Below are positions 15,878-62,696 of a stretch of DNA of 64,000 nt, in pieces; the first letter of the stretch is position 1; the number at the start of each line of letters is the position of its first letter. This stretch comes from Nitzschia sp. pyKryTriq1 (Eukaryota > Bacillariophyta > Bacillariophyceae > Bacillariales > Bacillariaceae). Location of the stretch: contig OY101125.1 of assembly GCA_956465555.1 (NCBI GenBank), positions 1,585,009 to 1,649,008 of the forward strand. The letters run 5' to 3'. The notes below the pieces were generated by a model that searched no databases, had not been told where the DNA came from, and worked only from the letters and a program-made list of their open reading frames with translations. Position numbers and translations under genes: made by a program.

Positions 15878-16936
15878 GGCTAATATCAATAATTCTACAA
15901 GTAGTGGTACCAGGTACCGGTATGTAGGAACAACAGAAAGAATACGAATAGGTTGCGGTGTTGTTGTTGTGTAAATGATATAGGTAGTCGAGTAGAGTAG
16001 AAGGAGTGTAAGTGATGGTACATTAGTTGGTCGCCACCGCCCATACTACCGGTATGCATAATGTTGTGGAAAATCTTCGTCTTTCGACGACCGACGACTG
16101 ATGCTGTTTTGATTTTTGATTTTGACATTACGTACACGTACGTCATCGACGGTACACGTACCGGTACGTCACGTGTTCGACCTCTCCCGCCGCACGTATC
16201 GCGCTTTTTTGGGTCCGTCTGACCGTCTCCACGTTCAAGAGCTAAGCTCTACTCTCTACAAATGCTCTCTACTCTCTATTACTAGTAGCTCTACTCTAGT
16301 AGTAGCTAGTAGAGAGTAGTACGACTACTACTACCGGAGTAGCTTCTCGAATAGAGTAAAAGAGTCTTCGTTTGTTTGTTAGTTAGAATAGTCTAGAGTA
16401 GTAGCGCGAGGGCGAAGAACTTTTGGGAAAATCATCATCATGATGAAGTCCTCATCATCAATCAATCTTCTTTTGCGAACCCCGACCGCCGCAGGAGAAA
16501 ACAAACGAGAACGCCCACAGCTTCCACTGAAATGACATATGCCCGAGGCATATGTGGATACCTTTCGGGCTTATTAATATTTATATCTACTTCAAGAACG
16601 GGATTGGATGTTGTGGTGATGATGATGCCGCCGGATACTACACTATACTACGAAGTACGTAAGAGTGGTATTAGACCCACTCCCGCCTTTCGTTTCGTTG
16701 TATGATTTATGTTTGGCATCTACTAATAGCTCTTCGTCTTCAGCTCTGTTAGTTGTTGACACAACAACACCAAGTCCGCAATCGGATCGATTGCATAAAT
16801 AATCAACAACAACAACACAAACATTATTCGGTACATCTCTATATCGATCGATCGATCGTTCGTTCGTTCGTCGAGTAGAATCGAATCGAATCGAATCGAG
16901 TCGTCAAACAACAACCACAGCAGCAACAACAACAAC
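15878..16936. other. Divergent intergenic region
   Basis: Between outward-facing genes. It contains TACCGGTA palindromes (15915, 16047, 16159), a hairpin with a perfect 9-bp stem and 3-base loop at 16535-16555, CTA/TAG runs (16240-16330), and a TCGA/TCGT repeat plus a CAA-rich leader before the next start. Confidence 0.5.
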
Positions 16937-18358
16937 ATGCATCAGGCGGCCAAGTCACTCTCTCCGAATTTCTCGACGATTTTGGCTTCGTTTGGAAATG
17001 GCCACCCCGACAAAGAACAACAAGAAGAAAAGAAAGGAATAAAGAAGAAAGTATGTGCTGCGGGCAGTAGTGCCCGCTCTGTTCATATCTCACCACCAAA
17101 GTCAGCAGGGAAGAACGGTAGTAGTACGAGAAGTCCAGCCACCATCACCAGCAAGGACTCGAAGCAGAATAAGATTAACAACAAGGAATCAACACCATCA
17201 CCACCACCATCATCACCATCATCGCAGAGCATCAAGAACAAGAAGTTTGGTGGTATGTTCGTACTACCTGTAATGCCGCCAAACCTTTCCCCGTTGACCA
17301 ACAAAACCAACAAGAGGAGGAAAGATGTTCCACCAACAAGAACAAGCTTTTGGCCTTTGGCGCCGATCGATACCAAACAAGAGCAACATTTCAGAATGAT
17401 ACTACTACGACGAAAGAGTCGTCCTCCTATCGATCATCATGATTTTGCTGATGGGGTACTATTACTAGGACAACAACAGCACCACCATCACCAGCTCATG
17501 GTACTCATCCAGAGGAAGAATTCGGATGAAGTGGTCGCTGTTGTCGAGCGGTTGAGGGAAACTGCTGCTGCTACTGCTGCTACTGCTACTGCTGATGGTG
17601 GGAGTGGTGGCAAAAACAAGGTAGTGTCGTCTCTAGATCATTTCAATATTTGGGGAGACGCCGAACGAACCATTTTGATTGGTACTGTCCAGGAGATGGA
17701 AAGTCCAAACAACGATTCCACCGTTCCTGTCGCATTGCGATACACTCGACAGTACCGCATGTACAGTACCAAACCAATGTATCTAGGTCAAGCGAGAACC
17801 CGACACCGTCATACGAGTGGTGTTGTTGTTGCTGCTGGCGATGATCATCATCATCATGAACAGCATCCTCATCCTCATCCAGAGGACCGACACAGCAGCA
17901 CCAGCAGCAGCAACAAAAAATTCGATATCCTTTATCATTGTGCCGACATTACATCAAAGCCATCCGGCTTGTTGGGACGTCAACAAACCCATCATATGAA
18001 ATTTCACTTGTCAGAACCAAAACGCTGGGCGAACTATTACTACTCGACGACGACAACAGCAGCAATGAACAAGAGTGCAGCTGGTGGTGCTGCTGCTGGT
18101 GCTGGTGCTGGACGAACAACAACAACAACTACTACAACAAGCGGCAGCATGACCACAGCCGTAAAGTGTGAAAATAAGTTGTGCGCACAGGTGACAACGT
18201 TTGTTGCGTCACCAGATAAACATCAACAACAACAAGAAGAAGAAGAAGAAAAAGAGTATTGCGATATTGTGATACAACCCAAATTCGATCCCTTGGTGAT
18301 ATCGCTCTTCTTCGCAATCGCGACGGGGGATAGTTCTACTAGTAGTAGAAGCAATTAA
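16937..18358 (+). CDS. Low-complexity protein, possible tubby/LURP-one-like core
   Basis: A 473-residue single-exon ORF with a CAA-rich leader. The first 110 residues are basic and disordered (Lys, Ser, Pro, His). Between about residues 140 and 460, short ordered segments are separated by His, Ala, Thr and Gln inserts: a DEVVAVVERL helix, LDHFNIWGDAERTILIGTVQE, ALRYTRQYRMYSTKPMYLGQ, KFDILYHCADITSKPSGLLG and the C-terminal CDIVIQPKFDPLVISLFFAIA. The order of beta-like strands with a final hydrophobic helix recalls the tubby C-terminal and LURP-one (LOR) fold, which binds membranes or phospholipids. The similarity is weak and seen only by eye. The next genes on the right belong to a different family. 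Confidence 0.6.
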   Translation: MHQAAKSLSPNFSTILASFGNGHPDKEQQEEKKGIKKKVCAAGSSARSVHISPPKSAGKNGSSTRSPATITSKDSKQNKINNKESTPSPPPSSPSSQSIKNKKFGGMFVLPVMPPNLSPLTNKTNKRRKDVPPTRTSFWPLAPIDTKQEQHFRMILLRRKSRPPIDHHDFADGVLLLGQQQHHHHQLMVLIQRKNSDEVVAVVERLRETAAATAATATADGGSGGKNKVVSSLDHFNIWGDAERTILIGTVQEMESPNNDSTVPVALRYTRQYRMYSTKPMYLGQARTRHRHTSGVVVAAGDDHHHHEQHPHPHPEDRHSSTSSSNKKFDILYHCADITSKPSGLLGRQQTHHMKFHLSEPKRWANYYYSTTTTAAMNKSAAGGAAAGAGAGRTTTTTTTTSGSMTTAVKCENKLCAQVTTFVASPDKHQQQQEEEEEKEYCDIVIQPKFDPLVISLFFAIATGDSSTSSRSN

Positions 18359-18829: not shown

Positions 18830-19522
18830 CTATACTACATCATCATCATCCATGAGAAACACGCAAAATTGTTCGTCATCCGTTTCTTCCAGCAATGCGT
18901 GACGCGGACAAGTCGTCCTCGTTTTGGTACTAGTAGTAGTAGTAGAAGAAGAAGAAGGATGATAGTAGTATCGCTGCTCCATACTAGTACCTTGTTGTTC
19001 TTCGTGTTCTTCTTCTCCTTGTTCCTCCTCGATACTACTACTTCTAGGATTGGAATGACGGGTGTGGGTTATACGTTGAATGATGCTGATATCGGGGTCC
19101 TCCTCCTCGCCGCTTGCAACAGCAGCAGTCTCACTTGTCGAAGAACTCATCGAGGAGGATTGCCGACCACGTAGTTGTCGTCGTCGTTCTCGAATTCCAT
19201 TGACAATACGACAGTACATGCAGTAGTCTCGATAGTCGGCAGCAGCTTCAGCAGCCTCCCGCATGAGTTGTTCTTGTTGTCGTTGTTGCAATTCGGAAGC
19301 TGGGGGCTTCATGGTTATGGTGGAATAGTAATTGCTAGTAGTAGTACTATTAGTACGACCACCAGCAGCAATTGGAATCGATTTTGTCGCCGACACGACG
19401 GAGGAGGATCGAAGTCGTTGTCGTCGTGGCGGGTAGAAAGAATAATAGGCATCATCATCATCATCATCAGACGATGGAGACTGCTTGGTGGAAAGCTGCT
19501 GCTGCTCGTGGTGGTTCTTCAT
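18830..19522 (-). CDS. Three-motif diatom family protein, copy 1
   Basis: A 230-residue protein, the first of three clustered paralogues. Conserved parts, in order, are KSIPI near residue 46, an ASELQ segment, a helix containing ADYRDYCMYCRIVNGI near residue 95, an ISIIQRITHTRH segment near residue 148, a YYYHPS stretch, and a C-terminal CVFLMDDD. The rest is Ser, Arg, Glu and Thr low-complexity. This copy is the most divergent: it has an extra RQQEQLMREAAEAA insertion in motif 1 and two extra acidic residues at the end. It has no signal peptide and no membrane segment, so it is probably cytosolic or nuclear. Short motifs in a disordered chain suggest peptide-docking contacts, which is inference. 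No named family is known to me. Confidence 0.65.
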   Translation of the reverse strand: MKNHHEQQQLSTKQSPSSDDDDDDAYYSFYPPRRQRLRSSSVVSATKSIPIAAGGRTNSTTTSNYYSTITMKPPASELQQRQQEQLMREAAEAAADYRDYCMYCRIVNGIRERRRQLRGRQSSSMSSSTSETAAVASGEEEDPDISIIQRITHTRHSNPRSSSIEEEQGEEEHEEQQGTSMEQRYYYHPSSSSTTTTSTKTRTTCPRHALLEETDDEQFCVFLMDDDDVV

Positions 19523-21502
19523 GATATGGTCGTTCTTCTTCTGGAGTCGACGACAATAAGTGAAATTGCGTCCTGGTGACCATCAGCGACGACGACGCCG
19601 ACGACGACTCTTTTTCAGGCTAAAAGCTCAGGATATTATCATCCAATTCCGCGATATTATGATGATGAACGATGTTTTATGAGCATGCGGTAGGTTTTGG
19701 CCTTTTGAGGCTATTCGAAACCACGGCCTATCCAAGGCCGTTGTTTACGCCTCCAGTTGGTACCTTTTCTGTATCAAACGTACGGTAGAATTTTGGGGTG
19801 TTTGTACGGACATTACGCAACGCCTCAACATACGTACTCGTACAGGCGTACAGAGCAGAGACAGCAGCACGAGCATCATCAGTCTATTTTCAAAATGACG
19901 TAGTTTCAATTCGCTGCTCCAAGCGAATTGTATTTACCGGTATGCTCCATGTTCTTCCACTTCTTACTTACCGTACCACACATACTGTACTTATTGCGGC
20001 CGTTACAGTTATTTGACAACAACATAAGCAACGGACGGAGATGTCAATCCAATCGTGCATGCATGCCGGGGTGTCAGAAGGACCATGGCTCGGCCAATCA
20101 ACATGCTTGATCAGATAGAAAGAATAAGGAAACAGAGAAAGAAGAAGAACCGACCGAATTATCATCAACGACACAAGACACAACGGACAACAACGACGAA
20201 CGACAGTATTTCCCCTTTGACTTTACCTACGGTAGCTACAGTACTACTATGTATGGCTGGTCTACGACTCTTCTACTGCTACAAACTACTAGTAGTAGTA
20301 AGAGAGAGAGAGAGAGAGAGAACGAGTATGTAGCTCTCTAGCTACCGGTACTACCGGTACTAGCTATTGCGGAGCTTCGTTGGTTGTGTCGGCGTCGTCG
20401 TCGTCCTCTCCGAATCTACTAGTACTCTACTAGATACTGTACGATTTAGCAGTAGAAGGCAGGCGGGAGAGTTTGTCTTCAGCGCGGACGAGCAGGACGA
20501 CAGCTGATGACACCATCATCTGCTCTACTCTACTCTACCGTACTACTACTAGACGATCAATCGTGGGAAGTCAAGAAAATGAGGATGATGCAATTGCAGC
20601 AGCATCATGATCTAAATAAGACTATTCTCTAGTTTTTAGAGTATCGGAAAGCAAGGTCACCAAGACCCCCCGGCGGGCAACAGAATTATCATGATCGAGG
20701 ACATCATCATGATGATCGACATCATCATCATCATCAATCAATCAATAACCGAATCTTCAATCAAATCTTTGCGTACGTACGTACGTACTCCTTGCAAGGA
20801 ATCGAATCATCTCGTCATGCAGCAGCATCTACTACTACGTACTCTACTACTACTACTGCGGCTCCAACCAGCAGCTAATGTCCGGTTTGCTATCATGATA
20901 TACTACTCCTACTCCTACTCTCATAATAGACTCTTAGCTATATCGTACTCGTAGCTAGCTCTACTAGAGCTACTAGTACTAGTACTAGTATTTCTTGAGT
21001 TGAGTTGAGTCGACTCGAACCGTCCAACACAACCGATGGTGTGCTACAGTACTAGTATGCTGCTGCTGGTAGACCACTAGTAGACGTAGTAGCTAGAAGA
21101 ATAGAAGTGCAGATACTAGTAGTGTCTCTATTAGTACTAGTAGTAGCAAGAATAGTGTGTGTTGTTTTCTACCTTTTGTTTTGGTGGTTGTTGACGTCCT
21201 CGCTAAGCGAGACTCTAGCTTTCTATGGTGGTGGTGGTGGTGGTGGTGTAGCGTCATGTCTATAGTTTTGTATTGTTGTTGCAAAACAGAAATAGAGTAG
21301 TAGTAGCAGTAGTAGTAGTAGCAGCAAACAGAAAAATGGGCATATGATGTTGCTGTGTCCATCATCATCGTCGTGTTGTTCTGTCTGGTGGTGTTGGTGT
21401 TGGTAGCATCAGTCGATGATGGTCAGGATCGTTCTTGTTCCAGAGGGAGAAAGCGTGTAGTACTTCATGATCGAACATTCATTCATTCATTCCTTCGTTC
21501 GT
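19523..21502. other. Intergenic region, 2 kb
   Basis: Promoter side of copy 1 and terminator side of copy 2. It holds TACCGGTA palindromes near 19935 and two at 20343-20357, a GTAC repeat (20772-20788), GA repeats (20300-20322), ATC/GATG and TGG repeats, and a 91-codon minus ORF at 21093-21368 made of repeat translations. No convincing gene. Confidence 0.5.
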
Positions 21503-22864
21503 TCAGAGATCATCCATGACAAACACGCCATCCTCGACTGCATCGACTTCAGATGCAGCCCCATACGACGAGTAGCATCCCGGATGTTGTTGTAGCATAA
21601 GATTGCCGAGTCCTCCACCCCCTCCACTGATGCTAGTAGCAGTAGCAGTAGTAGAAGAAGGAGGCGGCAGCAGCAGCAAAGGTGCCATGATTGTCGGAGC
21701 GGCAAGCATTCTGGAAGCATTGGGGGAGGATGACGAGGATGTAGTAGTATCCTCGAAGAATGGATTAATAAGTTGCTGTTCTTGTTGTTGTTGATTGATC
21801 TTGTTGTTGGTAGGAGTTGGATGATGACGACGACTACTCGTCATGGTATTAGAGTGTCTTTCCAAACCTTCCTTCATGTAGTAGCTCATGTAGCTAGTAG
21901 AAGGTTGTTCTCCTCCTCCTCCTCCTTGAATAATCATGGGATCATCATCATGTCGGGTACGAATGATATGTCGAAGAATCGTATCATTGTCACTACTACT
22001 TCTAGCGCGGCTGCTGCTGCTGCTGCTGACGGGCAATTCCGTCCAAGACCGACGTTGTTGTTGTTCATGAATCCCATTCACAATACGGGTATACATGCAA
22101 TAGTCTCGATAATCAGCGGTAGCTTGATCTTCCAAGAGTTGCAATTCGGAAGCGGTACGTTTCATGGAATCGCTGTCAATCGGAATCGATTTGGTCACAG
22201 CACCACCACCACCACCACCAACCGCAGCAGCAGCAGTAGTAGATGCTGCTGGTAGTGGGGGAAAGGAATAGGACGAATTCTTGGATGCTATGGGACGCCA
22301 CGTCTTGTGGTTGTTGTGGTTGTTGTTCGAATCGGTTTTGGATGGGTAGCTTTCTTTCAAGCTTTTCGATCTGCTGCTGTTGATGCTCCTACTGGAGCAG
22401 GATGGATACTGTGTCACCAGGTCAGGCGTTCTAGTTCCCTTTTTATTAGTATTGCTGGAAGGAGAAGAAGAGGAGCCGCTACTAGTATGACCGCTGGAAG
22501 TTGAGTCCTTGGAAGAGTCCTTGAAGAATGAGTCCTTGGATGAGTACTTGGACTTGGACTTGCTTTGCTGCTCTGGTGGCTGTTGTTGTTCCGAATGTGG
22601 ATAGCCTTGATGCAGTACCCAAGGAGATGGGTCCTCGAACAGCAGGATGCGATCACCAGTGCTGCTGCCGCGGCGAGAAGAACCACGCACTTGTACACGG
22701 CCATTGGACAGATCATCATGATCATCATCATCATGATGATTGTAGTACGAGTGGTACTCGCGAGACGTAGTACAAGACGATGATGGTTCGTCTCCTCGTC
22801 GTTCACCATTGCGATGGTTCATTCGCAACGGGGCAATCTTGGAGTCTAAAAGGCTTAGATTCAT
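21503..22864 (-). CDS. Three-motif diatom family protein, copy 2
   Basis: The longest open frame starts at 23269, but its first 135 codons translate leader repeats (GACT, GATC and GGTGTT runs). I therefore place the start at the ATG at 22864 (MNLSLLDSKIAPL), giving 453 residues. Motif 1 follows KSIPI and reads RTASELQL then ADYRDYCMYTRIVNGI. Motif 2 is DTILRHIIRTRH. The C-terminus is DGVFVMDDL. Between them lie Ser, Gln, Gly and His tracts. Order and spacing match the copies at 18830-19522 and 24329-25198. This copy points left like copy 1, while copy 3 is divergent from it. No catalytic residues or membrane segments are evident. The function is unknown. Confidence 0.7.
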   Translation of the reverse strand: MNLSLLDSKIAPLRMNHRNGERRGDEPSSSCTTSREYHSYYNHHDDDDHDDLSNGRVQVRGSSRRGSSTGDRILLFEDPSPWVLHQGYPHSEQQQPPEQQSKSKSKYSSKDSFFKDSSKDSTSSGHTSSGSSSSPSSNTNKKGTRTPDLVTQYPSCSSRSINSSRSKSLKESYPSKTDSNNNHNNHKTWRPIASKNSSYSFPPLPAASTTAAAAVGGGGGGAVTKSIPIDSDSMKRTASELQLLEDQATADYRDYCMYTRIVNGIHEQQQRRSWTELPVSSSSSSRARSSSDNDTILRHIIRTRHDDDPMIIQGGGGGEQPSTSYMSYYMKEGLERHSNTMTSSRRHHPTPTNNKINQQQQEQQLINPFFEDTTTSSSSSPNASRMLAAPTIMAPLLLLPPPSSTTATATSISGGGGGLGNLMLQQHPGCYSSYGAASEVDAVEDGVFVMDDL

Positions 22865-24328
22865 GGATTGACTGACTGACTGACTGACTGATGATGATAC
22901 TGATACTGATAATGATGATGATGATGGGAATAAGGATGGATGGATGGTGGGATGAATGAATGGATCGATCGTTTGATTCTTGTGGTGATGTTGGTGTTGG
23001 TGTTGGTGTTGGTGTTGACGATAGCAGGTTGTTCGAATCAATGAATGTAGGAAAGGAAAGAAAGAAAATGGATGGATAGGAAAGACGATCGATCGATCGA
23101 TCGAGCGAACGAACGAACGATATAATAATATGATGGCACAAATAAGAAGTGTTCCTAAAATCGGAATTTCTGCCTTCTTCCCGTCATCATCATGCACGCG
23201 TGGTGATGGTGCAACCTTCAACCTTCCTTGTTGCTTGTGGTTCTCCATGCAATATCGCATCGCGCTCATATTTACCTAAACATCAATCGTTACTAATAAA
23301 TATTTCTTCCACGTGTCCCCGTACATGTTCTACGCGACAGGATCTTGACATGGACTTCGCGTCCATCCGCCACCACCATCACCACTTAAGGAAGTTTACC
23401 CCAACCACCGACCGTTGCTCATAATGTACCGTATGATGTACCGGTGGTACTGTACATACTCCCTCGTACCGGGGTACGAACTGTCGGGACGGAGAACACC
23501 ATGACACGCTACAATTTTGTCCACACACGCACGCACTTTCTTCCGTGTGAAACCTGCGAATTTGTTACGAAAAGCAATAATATTCAAAACTTCGTGATGT
23601 TCCCATTCTCTTTCCCAAACTACTGTACTAAGCCCCATGTATATATATCCCATAAATGATCATTATATAGAAAGAGAATCCAGCGAGTTAGCGAGCATAT
23701 TATTTTTTGTTGAACAACAAGACTAGACTAACGAATCATCATCGAATCTCAAACGGTACCGATATTATTATTTATGACCCCCCTGATGATATCGATCAGC
23801 CGATCCTCGACGACTCGTACGACTTAATCTTGATTTTGGGGGTCGGGTTCCTCTCCTTGCCTTCCGCCGGGCGCCGGCCGGCAATCTTCCTCGAAGTAGT
23901 TCGCTGCGGTTCGCTGGTCGCGAGGAACACAAATTCCGTCGGTTTCTTGGTCTTTCGGAACTTGACCTTTTTTCATTGGAGGAGGCCTGTCGCATTGTTG
24001 TCAAGGACATCAGGAACTTCCCTTGCCTTGGGCGGAATTGATTTTGTGAGCCACAAAATAAAGTAATAATAATAAATCATTGGATGGATGGCGATGAACG
24101 TGTTGAATGAATCTTCCCCGCCCGTCGTCGTCGTCCTCCGATATATTGAAGTACTACTACCGGAATATGGTAATTATTTGAGAGCCGCTTTGTTGACACA
24201 ACACACATATTGTAAAAACAACCATCCAATTTCCGCCTTTCCATCACGTCATCATCAATCACCACAACCATCACCATCAATCATCATAGACAACATTACA
24301 AGTCAACTGCTACACCACCACCATAATA
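22865..24328. other. Divergent promoter region of family copies 2 and 3
   Basis: It contains the GACT repeat (22868-22891), GTTGGT repeats (22990-23016), a GATC run passing into GAAC repeats (23083-23121) and a GTACCGGTGG near-palindrome. A 119-codon ORF at 23707-24066 has ordinary amino-acid composition but no recognised similarity; I do not call it a gene. Confidence 0.45.
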
Positions 24329-25198
24329 ATGAGACCGATTTCAGAAACTCTTACATCATCATCATCATCATCGCATCGCATCCCTCTTACTTCTTCTTCT
24401 TCCGAACGAATGGCAGAGGAGAATACAAACAGCAGAATCCACCCGTCAAACCACAACAACAACCCTCATCCCTCCGACGCTACTTACCCGCCATTATCAT
24501 TGGATGATAATCAGCATAATCATCAGCATAATCATCAGCATCGTCATCAAACCCAGCACCAGCACCAGCATCCTGGCAGCAGCAACACCAGCAAAAACAA
24601 AAACAAAAACAACAACAACAACAACAAGTCCGCACCTATCCATATTCCAGGCTGTGTGAGACGAACTCCATCCGAAATTCAATTACGTGAAGATGAAGCG
24701 ATGGCAGAGTTTCGCGACTATCTCATGTTTGAAAGAATTGTCAATGGCATGACAAAGAACCACCACCAGCAGCAGCAGCAACAACAACAACAGCAGCAAA
24801 TTCAACAAGCGCCGAATCATAACCAGCATCATTCCAATACTCATCATCAGCATCCGCACCAGCACCAGCGCCACCAAGATCCCACCGATTCAATTGTACA
24901 GCATATCATTCAAACCAGGATTGATGCTCTTGGAGGTCCTGCTACTTTGGCAATGCATAGAGAACCGACGGAGAGGAGTGATCTCTACTTTGGTGCCTGG
25001 AACCAGCATATTGAACAACAGCAGCAACAACAACAACAACAACAACAGCAGCAAGTTCCGTCATCATCCTCAGGGGGAGGATCGTCTGCTGGCTACTACT
25101 ACTATCATCCTTCCAATACAAGCATGGTCACGGAAGATGGCCAACCAGTGCCTCAGTCCAGAAACAATTCGGGTGTGTTTCTGATTGACGATCTTTAA
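24329..25198 (+). CDS. Three-motif diatom family protein, copy 3
   Basis: A 289-residue protein; an internal ATG at 24410 (MAEENTNS) is an equally likely start. Motif 1 is RRTPSEIQL then AEFRDYLMFERIVNGM. Motif 2 is DSIVQHIIQTR followed by IDALGGPATLAMHREP. A YYYYHPS stretch precedes the C-terminal SGVFLIDDL. Long Gln/His tracts fill the gaps, unlike the Ser-rich copy 2, showing that the linkers drift while the motifs stay. An acidic, hydrophobic C-terminus (VFLIDDL) is the kind of short linear motif used for partner docking, but no partner is known. Cytosolic or nuclear by absence of other signals. Confidence 0.7.
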   Translation: MRPISETLTSSSSSSHRIPLTSSSSERMAEENTNSRIHPSNHNNNPHPSDATYPPLSLDDNQHNHQHNHQHRHQTQHQHQHPGSSNTSKNKNKNNNNNNKSAPIHIPGCVRRTPSEIQLREDEAMAEFRDYLMFERIVNGMTKNHHQQQQQQQQQQQIQQAPNHNQHHSNTHHQHPHQHQRHQDPTDSIVQHIIQTRIDALGGPATLAMHREPTERSDLYFGAWNQHIEQQQQQQQQQQQQQVPSSSSGGGSSAGYYYYHPSNTSMVTEDGQPVPQSRNNSGVFLIDDL

Positions 25199-26329: not shown

Positions 26330-26530
26330 GACGTCCAGCCGACGCGCCGCGGATTTTTCGTGTTGACAGATTTCTGACATTATTTTTTGACATGTGGTTC
26401 GCCATTTGATGCGACATCATCTCAGACACGACGTCCAGCCGACGCGCCGTTGATTTTTCGTGTTGACAGAATTCTGACATTTTTTGACATTTGGTTCGCC
26501 ATTTGATGCGACATCATCTCAGACACGACG
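26330..26530. repeat. Tandem duplication of about 100 bp
   Basis: Two head-to-tail copies (about 26330-26429 and 26431-26528) both contain ACGTCCAGCCGACGCGCCG, a TTTTTCGTGTTGACAGA segment, and TTCGCCATTTGATGCGACAT followed by CATCTCAGACACGACG. They differ by a few substitutions and small indels. Confidence 0.85.
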
Positions 26531-34698: not shown

Positions 34699-36994
34699 TC
34701 ATACGGCCAAGGACGACGACGACGGTACACCACCACCACCACTACCCGCATGAAGCGGATGATGCAACTCGACTCCATGAGATGACGAAGTATTGTTGTT
34801 GTTGTTGTTTGATGATGGGGTTTGCAATAATTGAATCATTTCCTGTTGTTCCTGCTCCGTAAAGGAAAGATCATGATGATCATAATCATAATCATGATCA
34901 TTATTATTCATGTCTTCTTCGGTATCGCTCAAGGAATCACGTGCCTTGAGTTGTTTGGACTTTTGTTTGATATTTTCCCATTCGACTCGTAGCAAATTCC
35001 AAATGGCACGTCGAAAGACTTCTAGGAATTGCGTACACAAGACAAAGGCATCGTGCGAGTGAAACAAGTGACTGGACACGAATCGTAACAGCCACGAAAA
35101 TCGTAGGACGGCATCCGACAGTACAATCAAGGCACTCATGGTCAATCCGAATCGTAATCTTGGTCGAAGTAGTAAATGATGACATTTGGGAAAGGAGGAT
35201 CCTCCGGCTCCTCCTTTGAGTTTGGATGCGGAAGGTGCTTGTTTGGACCATTCGTCCATCATGGCTGGGATACTGCTACTGGGTCGACCACTTCCCGAAC
35301 GATGATGGTGATGATGCGGATGATGATCATCCTTGGGGCTGGTGGTAGGTTTGGCAAGAGGATCATACGTAGCATTGCTGCTGCTGCTAGTAGTACCACC
35401 TCCCACACTACCCAGACTGGACGTGGTCACAGCGCAAGCTTGTGCTACAATCGCTTGTGGATTTTGCATCATTCCCCAATCCATGACAATATCCCAATAC
35501 AAAGCGTAGAGAGCGTTGATACTGTAGAAAAGTAGAGAGAGAGAGAGAGAGGTAGTGATGAAGGGCGGTGTGAGAAACGTTCCATCCATCCATCCATCCA
35601 TCCACCACGACGCGTACTACTAACATCCGATCCCATAGTATGATATCATGATCCGATCCACAAATTCTTACAAACAGCACCAAGCAACGTGACGTGATGT
35701 ATCGAGCATGCGTGCATGCAAGAGTACATCAGTACGGTACATCAGTAGTAGTAGTAGTAGTAGTAGTCGATTGTAGTACTTACGTCATGAGGATATAAAG
35801 ATAGATATCCAATTGTTGGGCGGCGACAGAATCCGACATGGTCTTTTGATAGGCCGATAATAGTAGCGGCCAAATGGACGATGCATATTTGATGGCATTG
35901 GCCATGTGCTGATGACGATTCGGATCCTTTTGCATCCGACCAATCGACCACATTAACAAGCATTGTCGGGCTCGTATACAAAAGGGAATGGTGGCAAAGA
36001 TGGATGGTACAATAATATTGTGAGCATCTTGAGGGACGGGATTGGGATAATGACTCGCCATGTGAAGTAGCATCCCCCAATCGAAAAAGACCTTGGACAA
36101 ACTGCACATGGCATCGGCAAAAAAGACATCGACAAACGGAATTGGTCGTGGTACGACTACGACTCCTCCTCCTCCTCCTCCCATCTGGGATGATGGCAAT
36201 AATGTTCGAAAGCACCAACAGCGGGGATGGATCAAGGCGTAGATTCGTTGAAGGGTAATCCGAAAGGCTTTTCGGAGCCACTGATTTGACGAGAGGGGAA
36301 CAAAGATGTACAGGAGGACGGAAAAGTAAAACAAAAAGACGGCTCCGACGACACCTCGTCCTAGAGCATCCATCCAAAAATGAGTCGTCGCATGCAACAA
36401 GATGAGTAGAATCATACTGAAAATGACCAGCTTGTACCACGTAATTTCCGCTCCACCAGCTCCTCCCGCAGCAGCCGCAGCCGCAGCTTCTGTCGAGAGT
36501 AACTTATTTTCGTCTTGAAAATCGAGCCTCATTTTGTTGTCTTTGGAATTATGGAGCAAGTCTTCCATTATTGCCGCATTGTTGTTGTTGACGTCTCTAA
36601 TGCTGTTGGTATCCAACAAAGTGACACCGGAAAGACTGAGACTTCCGGTACTCGAAGGCGCTGTTGTCGTGATTGTAATGGGAAGAACTGCTTTGCCAGC
36701 AACAGCACCAGCAACACCAGCACCTCCACCAGTTTCGGGTGGTGGCTGCCCTATTACTACTGGCGGCAGCGGCGGGTGGTGGTGGTGGTGATGGTGATGA
36801 TGCCCCTTTTCTTGCTCTTCCTTGAGCAAGTCGTAGTTCAAGACGTACTTGTAGTTGATTCCAAAGAGACGAAAGAAAAAGATATTCATCCCCCACAATC
36901 CCACGGCGACTATCAAGACGGTAGGACTCCGCAACATGGCTTGGGCCGGGCCTCCGCCTTTGCCGAAAATATCACCCACTTCTTGGGACGACAT
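34699..36994 (-). CDS. EXS-domain membrane protein (ERD1/XPR1 type), two exons
   Basis: Exon 1 is 36994-35784 (donor gtaagt) and exon 2 is 35521-34699 (acceptor ctacag after a CT-rich tract). Together they make 677 residues, with the splice inside a Thr codon. The joined region reads MTINALYALYWDIVMDWG, a core EXS signature. Other EXS marks are IPFVDVFFADAMCSLSKVFFDWG, IRARQCLLMWS, HMANAIKYASSIWPLLLSAYQ, LRFSWLLRF and EVFRRAIWNLLRVEWENIKQK. EXS proteins include phosphate exporters (XPR1, PHO1) and ERD1, which acts in Golgi glycosyltransferase retention and phosphate recycling. The N-terminus starts with a TM segment and has no SPX domain, so ERD1-type is favoured. Low-complexity inserts split the first half. 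Four to eight membrane segments are visible. Confidence 0.88.
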
Positions 36995-38234
36995 TATAAT
37001 TAATGGTCTAGTATAGTATAGTATAGTATAGTTTTAGGAGCCGGGAGAGAGAGAGAGACTTGTTATCCCCAACAAATACAGTAATATATATATATGGTCT
37101 ACAAGTAAAAGTGCCAAAAGCGAAAAAGAGAGATGTGATGAACGTTAGTTAGATAGATGCATGCATTCATGCGCAAAAGGCACACAAAAATGACTGATGC
37201 CGCGCCGTAAAACGTACTTCTTGTAGACTACAGTACCGCTGCGTACGTACTGTACTCGTACGGGTACCACGGCATTGTGAGGGTAGAGCGCGCTCGTCGC
37301 TTGCGCTCACGTCGCTGTCCGTCATCCTCGACCTTGCGAAAAATATAGCCACCGGCTCTCTCGCTCTCTATCGATCCCGACGACTACTTGCTAGTAGCGG
37401 TGGTAAACGGTAAACAATACAAACTACTCAGAAAGGAGGAACACTCGTCGTCTACTGCTGTAGTACTATACTAGTAGTGTACTTGTATTACAATTTGCGT
37501 TTGCGTCGTCGCGATATAGTCGTCCATGTATACGAACAGACGACATAATGTGCAGCAGTACAGTACTATTACGTACACTGCTAGCGACCAAGAAGAACAA
37601 CCAGCCTCCAAGAACATCGAAGCGGGAAAGGGGGGATCTCAACAACAGCAGCAAGTGTATGTGATATGAGTCTGTACGTGTTGTGTTGCGTGTATACAGA
37701 ATACAGAATACAGAATACAGAATACAGAATACAGAATACACAGTACTCGTACTCTACTCATAGTACACGAATAGTGTTGGTTGTTGGAGGGAGGTTTTGT
37801 GTTTTGTGCTTTGTGTGAGTGTGTGACGAAATACAGTAATGTCATCAGTCATCCGTCTGTCTGTCCTTCCATCGTTCTATCGACTACGTAAAAGTCATAA
37901 ATCGTGTGTGCAGCGTGTCGTTGACGTGTCGTTTTTGATTGCAAAAATTGGATTTACTAAGTAATTTTGTCGCATGAAGAATGACTCTCAAGATTGAATA
38001 GAAGCGATGACGATGGATATCGTGCCAAAGATGTCGTCTTCCGCCAAATTATGTTTTGTACGTACATTCTTTTCATGTCTCATATCATCATCATACAAGA
38101 CCACTTTTACTTCTTGAAAGCATCATCCATCAAACACGTACTATCCCATCCCATCCCATCCCATCCCATTACTCCAGTCTGCTCTACTCTACTCTACTCT
38201 ACTTTTAGCCATAGCCACGACGGTGACGACGACA
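36995..38234. other. Divergent intergenic region
   Basis: Contains GTATA repeats near the left start codon (37010-37030), a TATA run (37085-37096), a 7-bp tandem repeat at 37694-37741, and CCCAT and CTACT repeats just before the endonuclease start (38146-38205). Nothing gene-like. Confidence 0.5.
37694..37741. repeat. ATACAGA 7-bp tandem repeat
   Basis: About six and a half uninterrupted copies of ATACAGA. Confidence 0.9.
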
Positions 38235-61794: not shown

Positions 61795-62118
61795 GAAGTA
61801 ATACTAGCAGTACGAATAGTAGATGTACTACTAGCAGTAGTAGTAAAAGTAGTAGGAGTAACACTATAGTACTTAGTAGTAGTATTGTAGTAGTAGTATT
61901 ATTATAGTGACAGTGGTATCAGTAGTAGTAGTCGTAATGGGGTTGGGTAATTGGAAGTCGGAAGTCGGAAATTGGAAAAAGGAAACATGGAAAAATGGGA
62001 ATAGGAACATGGGCAAGTGGAATTAGGAACAAGGGCAAGTGGGATTAGGAACAAGGGTAAGTAGGATTAGTGAGTTAGCAACAAGGTATAGTAGTAGTAG
62101 CAGAGGAGTAGTAGTGTG
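61795..62118. repeat. Subtelomeric repeat block, left copy
   Basis: Contains three modules reused downstream: AGTAATACTAGCAGTACGAA (again at about 62138), TAGTGACAGTGGTATCAGTA (again at about 62916), and the 180-bp stretch 61939-62118 that is repeated at 62517-62696. Confidence 0.85.
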
Positions 62119-62525: not shown

Positions 62526-62696
62526 TAATTGGAAGTCGGAAGTCGGAAATTGGAAAAAGGAAACATGGAAAAATGGGAATAGGAACATGGGCAAGTGGAA
62601 TTAGGAACAAGGGCAAGTGGGATTAGGAACAAGGGTAAGTAGGATTAGTGAGTTAGCAACAAGGTATAGTAGTAGTAGCAGAGGAGTAGTAGTGTG
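62517..62696. repeat. Subtelomeric direct repeat, right copy
   Basis: Matches 61939-62118 with a constant offset of 578 bp and no difference that I can see. It begins at TTGGGTAATTGGAAGTCGGA and ends at GAGTAGTAGTGTG. Confidence 0.92.

Follow-up and report, generated by a model that had tools for sequence, protein, structure and literature searches.

The function of many diatom genes is unassigned, and lineage-restricted orphan families of disordered proteins form a general category of their own. Among described systems, the CRTC/TORC co-activators are disordered proteins in which a helix for binding and a kinase-type site occur together with an acidic-hydrophobic C-terminal part. The yeast epsins Ent1 and Ent2 end a disordered region with a short hydrophobic-acidic peptide, their LIDL motifs being clathrin boxes (L-hydrophobic-x-hydrophobic-[DE]), and the substrate consensus of the SnRK1/AMPK and CDPK kinases is [MLVFI]x[RKH]xxSxxx[LFIMV], both as given in excerpts of the respective sources (PMC11543927; PMC4992866). 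Here we describe a family of at least six paralogous genes in the diatom Nitzschia sp. pyKryTriq1, three of which lie in a stretch of 64 kb (assembly GCA_956465555.1, contig OY101125.1, positions 1,585,009 to 1,649,008), hereafter the window. Like orphan families of disordered proteins, its members lack a named domain, are conserved over short parts joined by repeat-rich linkers and have duplicated locally; they differ in that, in half of them, the conserved parts are united in one module. The likeness to CRTC/TORC lies only in how the proteins might work, as order and sequence differ and Pfam scans of the six members gave no CRTC domain match. The SnRK1/CDPK consensus, which recurs at one aligned place in the family, denotes a class of sites and not a protein family.

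Results

Protein searches of the organism's own genome (40.65 Mb in 20 contigs, the window being the final 64 kb of contig C11) identified six paralogous loci: A, B and C in the window, D and E on contig C12 (near 155.3 kb and 150.6 kb, on one strand and some 4.7 kb apart) and F near 509 kb on contig C17. With each core as query and E values up to 10 admitted, B and D returned six matches and A, C, E and F five, all within the same six loci. Since the search scored only the best candidates and ignored introns, six is a lower bound on the size of the family. The reading frames are uninterrupted in all six members, the C-terminal motif stands at or near the stop, and a SIPI-type motif, an SE-Q element, a helix, an I..I.TR motif and the tail follow each other in the same order throughout (6/6).

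Each window copy occupies a single uninterrupted open reading frame (ORF). Copy A (18830-19582, minus strand) encodes 230 residues from its first methionine (18830..19522), the ORF staying open to 19582. Copy B (21503-23275, minus) encodes 439 residues from the methionine chosen here (21503..22822), a start that is uncertain because the ORF is open to 23275 with more methionines upstream. Copy C (24290-25198, plus) encodes 289 residues from its first methionine (24329..25198). A preliminary description of this DNA had proposed three neighbouring genes that share, in order, KS[IA]PI, [AP]SE[LI]Q, [DE][YF]RDYxM[YF]xRIVNG[IM], I[ILV][RQ][HR]I[IT]xTR and VF[LV][MI]DD, as a local expansion with one inverted copy and without any named family of this layout. 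All of this is borne out: the three ORFs between 18830 and 25198 carry these patterns in this order, A and B lie on the minus strand and C on the plus strand, and the motifs co-occur with their order kept in the three further paralogues on other contigs. A tree of 52 conserved positions joins the window trio into one group (support 0.94) and leaves the branching within it unresolved (support 0.32); the closest pair in it is A and B, with 37 of the 52 positions shared. DNA similarity among the window loci is short: A and B match at 77.8% over 72 bases, the best value, and the same comparison of the three loci found none between B and C, which argues against a recent segmental duplication.

The family is real and unnamed. 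Scans of all six members gave no accepted Pfam match and so revealed no enzyme domain, and a PDB profile search returned no match up to E 10, in line with the earlier statement on naming. Several Pfam candidates were considered and rejected: CDC26, a subunit of the anaphase-promoting complex, in one of the six members (E 0.025-0.027, 15.8 bits against a gathering cut-off of 24.5), and SUIM_assoc (E 0.046 and 0.044), CFAP97 (0.12), DUF6579 (0.12) and DUF6191 (8.5), each touching a single member or fragment; every near-miss for which a cut-off is given falls below it. Pattern searches gave 1 and 11 matches in a viral contig collection and 51 and 247 in a prokaryotic one, with no relative confirmed at E 1e-3 in either. 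As the collections searched contained no other diatoms, restriction of the family to this genome cannot be claimed. Among the papers listed in literature searches on the motif strings and on disordered or lineage-specific diatom families, none concerns this family, going by titles alone for the motif strings and by titles and the opening lines of abstracts for the others. A search on acidic activation domains found no paper, and the papers listed on amino-acid repeats in diatoms added nothing of use.

The codons of the motif blocks point to selection on the protein. The codon is shared at 138 of the 361 pairwise positions that have the same multi-codon amino acid, with 133.8 expected from codon usage alone, and identity at the first, second and third codon positions is 0.609, 0.755 and 0.336 over 690 codon pairs, which are not independent, the six sequences being related. 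Among the 15 pairs, codon sharing is greatest between A and B (22 of 33). The amino acids are held although synonymous sites have almost reached saturation, the result that selection on the protein sequence would give, and because synonymous codons are randomised with the amino acids kept, we regard the loci as selected protein-coding genes.

What the window copies show as scattered motifs is, in the other three members, a single unit. In each of D, E and F, the stretch from SIPI through TR is one module of 68 residues free of repeat tracts, followed by a variable stretch and then the tail IFD[LM][DE]L. The SIPI motif and the SE-Q element are 10-11 residues apart in five of the six members (25 in A), and the SE-Q element and the helix block 14 residues in the same proportion (22 in A). 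From the helix block to the I..I.TR motif, the spacing is 35 residues in D, E and F, compared with 47 in B, 64 in C and 53 in A, where the intervening stretches are Ser-rich, Gln/His-rich or Ser/Glu-rich. Simple repeats split the module only in the window copies, and linkers are rich in Gln, Asn, Ser and His. Copy A is the most altered, with an insertion of 8 residues ahead of the helix, PP in place of the RT of the cap and a tail changed by repeats (DDDDVV); F has a degenerate SE-Q element (TDEEAE). The compact form, being constant in D, E and F, may be ancestral, going by a comparison within the family. The preliminary picture of short motifs in fast-drifting linkers therefore holds for the repeat-invaded copies A, B and C, the only ones then in view, and fails for D, E and F, where SIPI to TR is a single module with the C-terminal peptide separate. 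A compact module may evidently pass for scattered motifs once triplet repeats expand inside it.

In the window, the motifs can be told from chance to different degrees. Counts were taken over six frames and compared with the mean of 100 mononucleotide shuffles. The helix pattern occurs three times, always within the ORFs of A, B and C, against 0.0 per shuffled window, and the SE-Q element three times against 0.04. The C-terminal pattern occurs four times against 0.2, three of the four belonging to the family. Taken alone, the SIPI-type motif (three against 0.9) and the I..I.TR motif (five, three of them in the family, against 2.03) are weak. On the minus strand, the six-frame motif scan places KSIPI of copy A at 19370..19384, its SE-Q element (PPASELQ) at 19286..19306, the helix core at 19193..19237, the I..I.TR motif, itself weak alone, at 19058..19081, and the C-terminal motif with the stop at 18830..18862. 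In copy B, also on the minus strand, the same scan locates KSIPI at 22178..22192, the I..I.TR motif at 21953..21976 and the C-terminal motif with the stop at 21503..21526; on the plus strand, copy C has KSAPI at 24626..24640, the I..I.TR motif at 24896..24919 and the C-terminal motif with the stop at 25175..25198. The helix cores of B (22070..22114) and C (24707..24751) are placed by scan and structure model together. Scan, model and kinase pattern combine at RTASELQ of B (22139..22159) and RTPSEIQ of C (24662..24682), each a predicted helix cap and a possible SnRK1/CDPK site.

AlphaFold2 predicts a confident helix of 35-45 residues that starts at the conserved T-x-x-E cap, with most of the remainder disordered, which agrees with the disordered scaffold proposed earlier. 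In the model of copy C, the helix spans residues 114-158 (block values of the predicted local distance difference test, pLDDT, of 87-93 over residues 111-150 and 70 over 151-160), and weaker helices lie at 185-200, at the I..I.TR motif (pLDDT 63-67), and at 216-238 (52-57); 184 of the 289 residues, including the tail, are below pLDDT 50. The model of the B core has helices at 14-48 (81-94 over residues 11-40) and 68-81 (75 over 71-80). T-x-x-E is the capping-box pattern for helix starts, and since both models begin the long helix immediately behind the conserved Thr of RT[AP]SE, we read it as a helix capping box. It is present in five of the six members, A lacking the Thr. The SnRK1/CDPK consensus falls on the aligned serine in four of the six (B, C, D and E), once per protein, with 0.09-0.28 expected by shuffling, and member F has Glu at this position.

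The C-terminus matches [VI]F.[LMI][DE] in all six members, five of which end in Leu, with a net acidic charge of between 1 and 5 over the final 12 residues. Several classes of short peptide, among them EAR, SUMO-interacting and PDZ motifs, have pattern definitions against which such a tail can be compared. The strict EAR forms (LxLxL or DLNxxP) occur in 0/6 tails and a relaxed EAR-like form in 3/6; the SUMO-interacting pattern [VIL][VIL]x[VIL] occurs in 0/6 forward and 1/6 in reverse. PDZ ligands distribute over class I (0/6), class II (3/6) and class III (3/6), with no single class covering the family. The strict clathrin box L[IVLMF].[IVLMF][DE] is found in none of the six, its relaxed form in all. 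Judged by these patterns, the tail is a conserved peptide that fits no one strict class across the family.

Discussion

We tentatively favour the view that these paralogues are a small family of regulatory adaptors without enzymatic activity, each combining a module built on one helix with a tail peptide and, possibly, a kinase switch, a reading that we consider plausible, if a little short of probable. It draws on the six paralogues with their common order, the amino acids held at saturated codons, the lack of an enzyme domain in the Pfam scans, the predicted helix, the SnRK1-type motif in four of six members and the tail in all six. In such an adaptor, the N-terminal module (SIPI, R-T-x-S-E, long helix, I..I.TR) would bind one dedicated partner through its helix. 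A kinase of the SnRK1/CDPK class could phosphorylate the serine that lies within the T-x-x-E cap as the second residue of the helix, and as a phosphate close to a helix start can stabilise the helix, this might tune helix stability or binding; in F, a glutamate occupies that position. The acidic-hydrophobic C-terminal peptide [VI]F-x-[LMI]-[DE]..L would recruit a second partner, and the linker would tether the parts flexibly, with room for simple repeats to expand at little cost. What makes the family tractable is that its conserved residues separate cleanly from repeat noise. One helix, one serine and one short tail provide exact handles, which allow profile searches in other diatoms as well as simple binding and phosphorylation tests.

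Several observations weigh against the adaptor reading. The hydrophobic moments of the helix and the I..I.TR motif are not above those of shuffled sequences (averaged-profile p 0.41 and 0.78, single sequences p 0.12-0.95). Two of the six members, A and F, lack the kinase consensus, and T-x-x-E, kept in five of six, could by itself account for the conservation as a plain helix cap. In most members, the tail fits none of the strict peptide classes known. Finally, the models rest on three window sequences and have predicted template modelling (pTM) scores of 0.26 and 0.38; we claim no packing of two helices from them. A bolder form of the adaptor reading strikes us as possible, though doubtful: an undescribed class of signalling adaptors restricted to diatoms or stramenopiles, in which a kinase site in the helix N-cap switches partner binding, the C-terminal peptide recruits a second partner, and repeats in the C11 trio have split the module with the contact residues fixed.

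A narrower case would make these proteins transcriptional co-regulators, with a helix module that would dock on a DNA-binding protein and a tail that would serve as an activation or EAR-like repression motif, in a CRTC-like manner. The tail, with Phe and aliphatic residues among acidic ones and its net charge, would suit such a role, as would the linkers rich in Gln, Asn, Ser and His; however, the strict EAR motif is absent throughout, its relaxed form reaches only half of the members and the Pfam scans found no DNA-binding domain. We rate this case as rather unlikely. Also unlikely, in our estimate, is that RT[AP]SE is a structural N-cap and not a kinase switch, the helix then belonging to a simple binding or oligomerising module. 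Member F, which keeps the cap and has lost the kinase motif, favours this explanation, and the start of the helix right after the Thr in both models fits it, but a cap leaves unexplained why Arg at -3 and hydrophobic residues at -5 and +4 are kept in B, C, D and E.

A role in trafficking, as coat adaptors whose C-terminus is a relaxed clathrin-box peptide, is improbable. The published clathrin box and the LIDL motifs of Ent1 and Ent2 offer a comparison, as far as the excerpt of the source goes (PMC11543927), and the relaxed form runs through all six tails. Yet the defining first Leu is missing in every one of them, and the Pfam matches include no ENTH, ANTH or other membrane domain. That the loci have no function, whether as frames that merely stay open in repeat-rich DNA or as copies in decay, is hardly credible: triplet repeats do hold frames open, the window has many overlapping open frames and copy A has diverged (insertion, lost site, altered tail), but synonymous codons are random where amino acids are conserved, and six frames run uninterrupted to a C-terminal motif at or near the stop.

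Genomic context

The neighbours of the six loci, among the ORFs scanned in the window and on C12 and C17, suggest no shared pathway. The nine in the window comprise a DHHC palmitoyltransferase, a P-type ATPase (two ORFs), UPF0047, a PRP1-type splicing factor, a 2-oxoglutarate-oxygenase-like ORF below cut-off, two EXS ORFs and one without a match; the eight on C12 and C17 are two protein kinases, a P450, a ClpS-domain ORF, a coiled-coil ORF, a bestrophin and two without a match. The EXS ORFs (34702-35616 and 35783-37033, minus) match successive parts of EXS and are probably exons of one gene. Beside copy A lies a frame of 519 residues (16799-18355, plus) rich in Ser, His and Thr tracts, with no Pfam match and none of the family motifs. 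At 26330-26530, a unit of 97 bases is present in two tandem copies that match at 93%.

The window ends in a TTGGGG telomeric array (63516-64000). Of 10 other contig ends, four end in such arrays (L042, L043, L045 and L048), one (L046) has 41 copies short of the end, four have none and one is unreadable. Two model diatoms carry TTAGGG at their telomeres, Nitzschia inconspicua a mixed TTAGGGTTGGGG repeat (PMC8329260) and another Nitzschia species again TTAGGG (PMC11960938), according to excerpts of these sources. A search of the literature on diatom telomeres with TTGGGG found nothing beyond PMC8329260, and diatom telomeres of near-pure TTGGGG may not have been described before. Near the telomere, two arrays (61984-62070 and 62562-62648) each hold four copies of one 22-base unit; a similar unit occurs on the opposite strand at the telomeric contig end L043, and the arrays are probably a subtelomeric satellite.

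Elsewhere in the genome, the silicon-transporter family has eight matches, all over the cut-off and the best at 885 bits, and 0/14 control genomes pass that cut-off; these matches by themselves indicate a diatom. Five of the eight lie on contig C1 between 79892 and 317295, four of them within 275839-317295.

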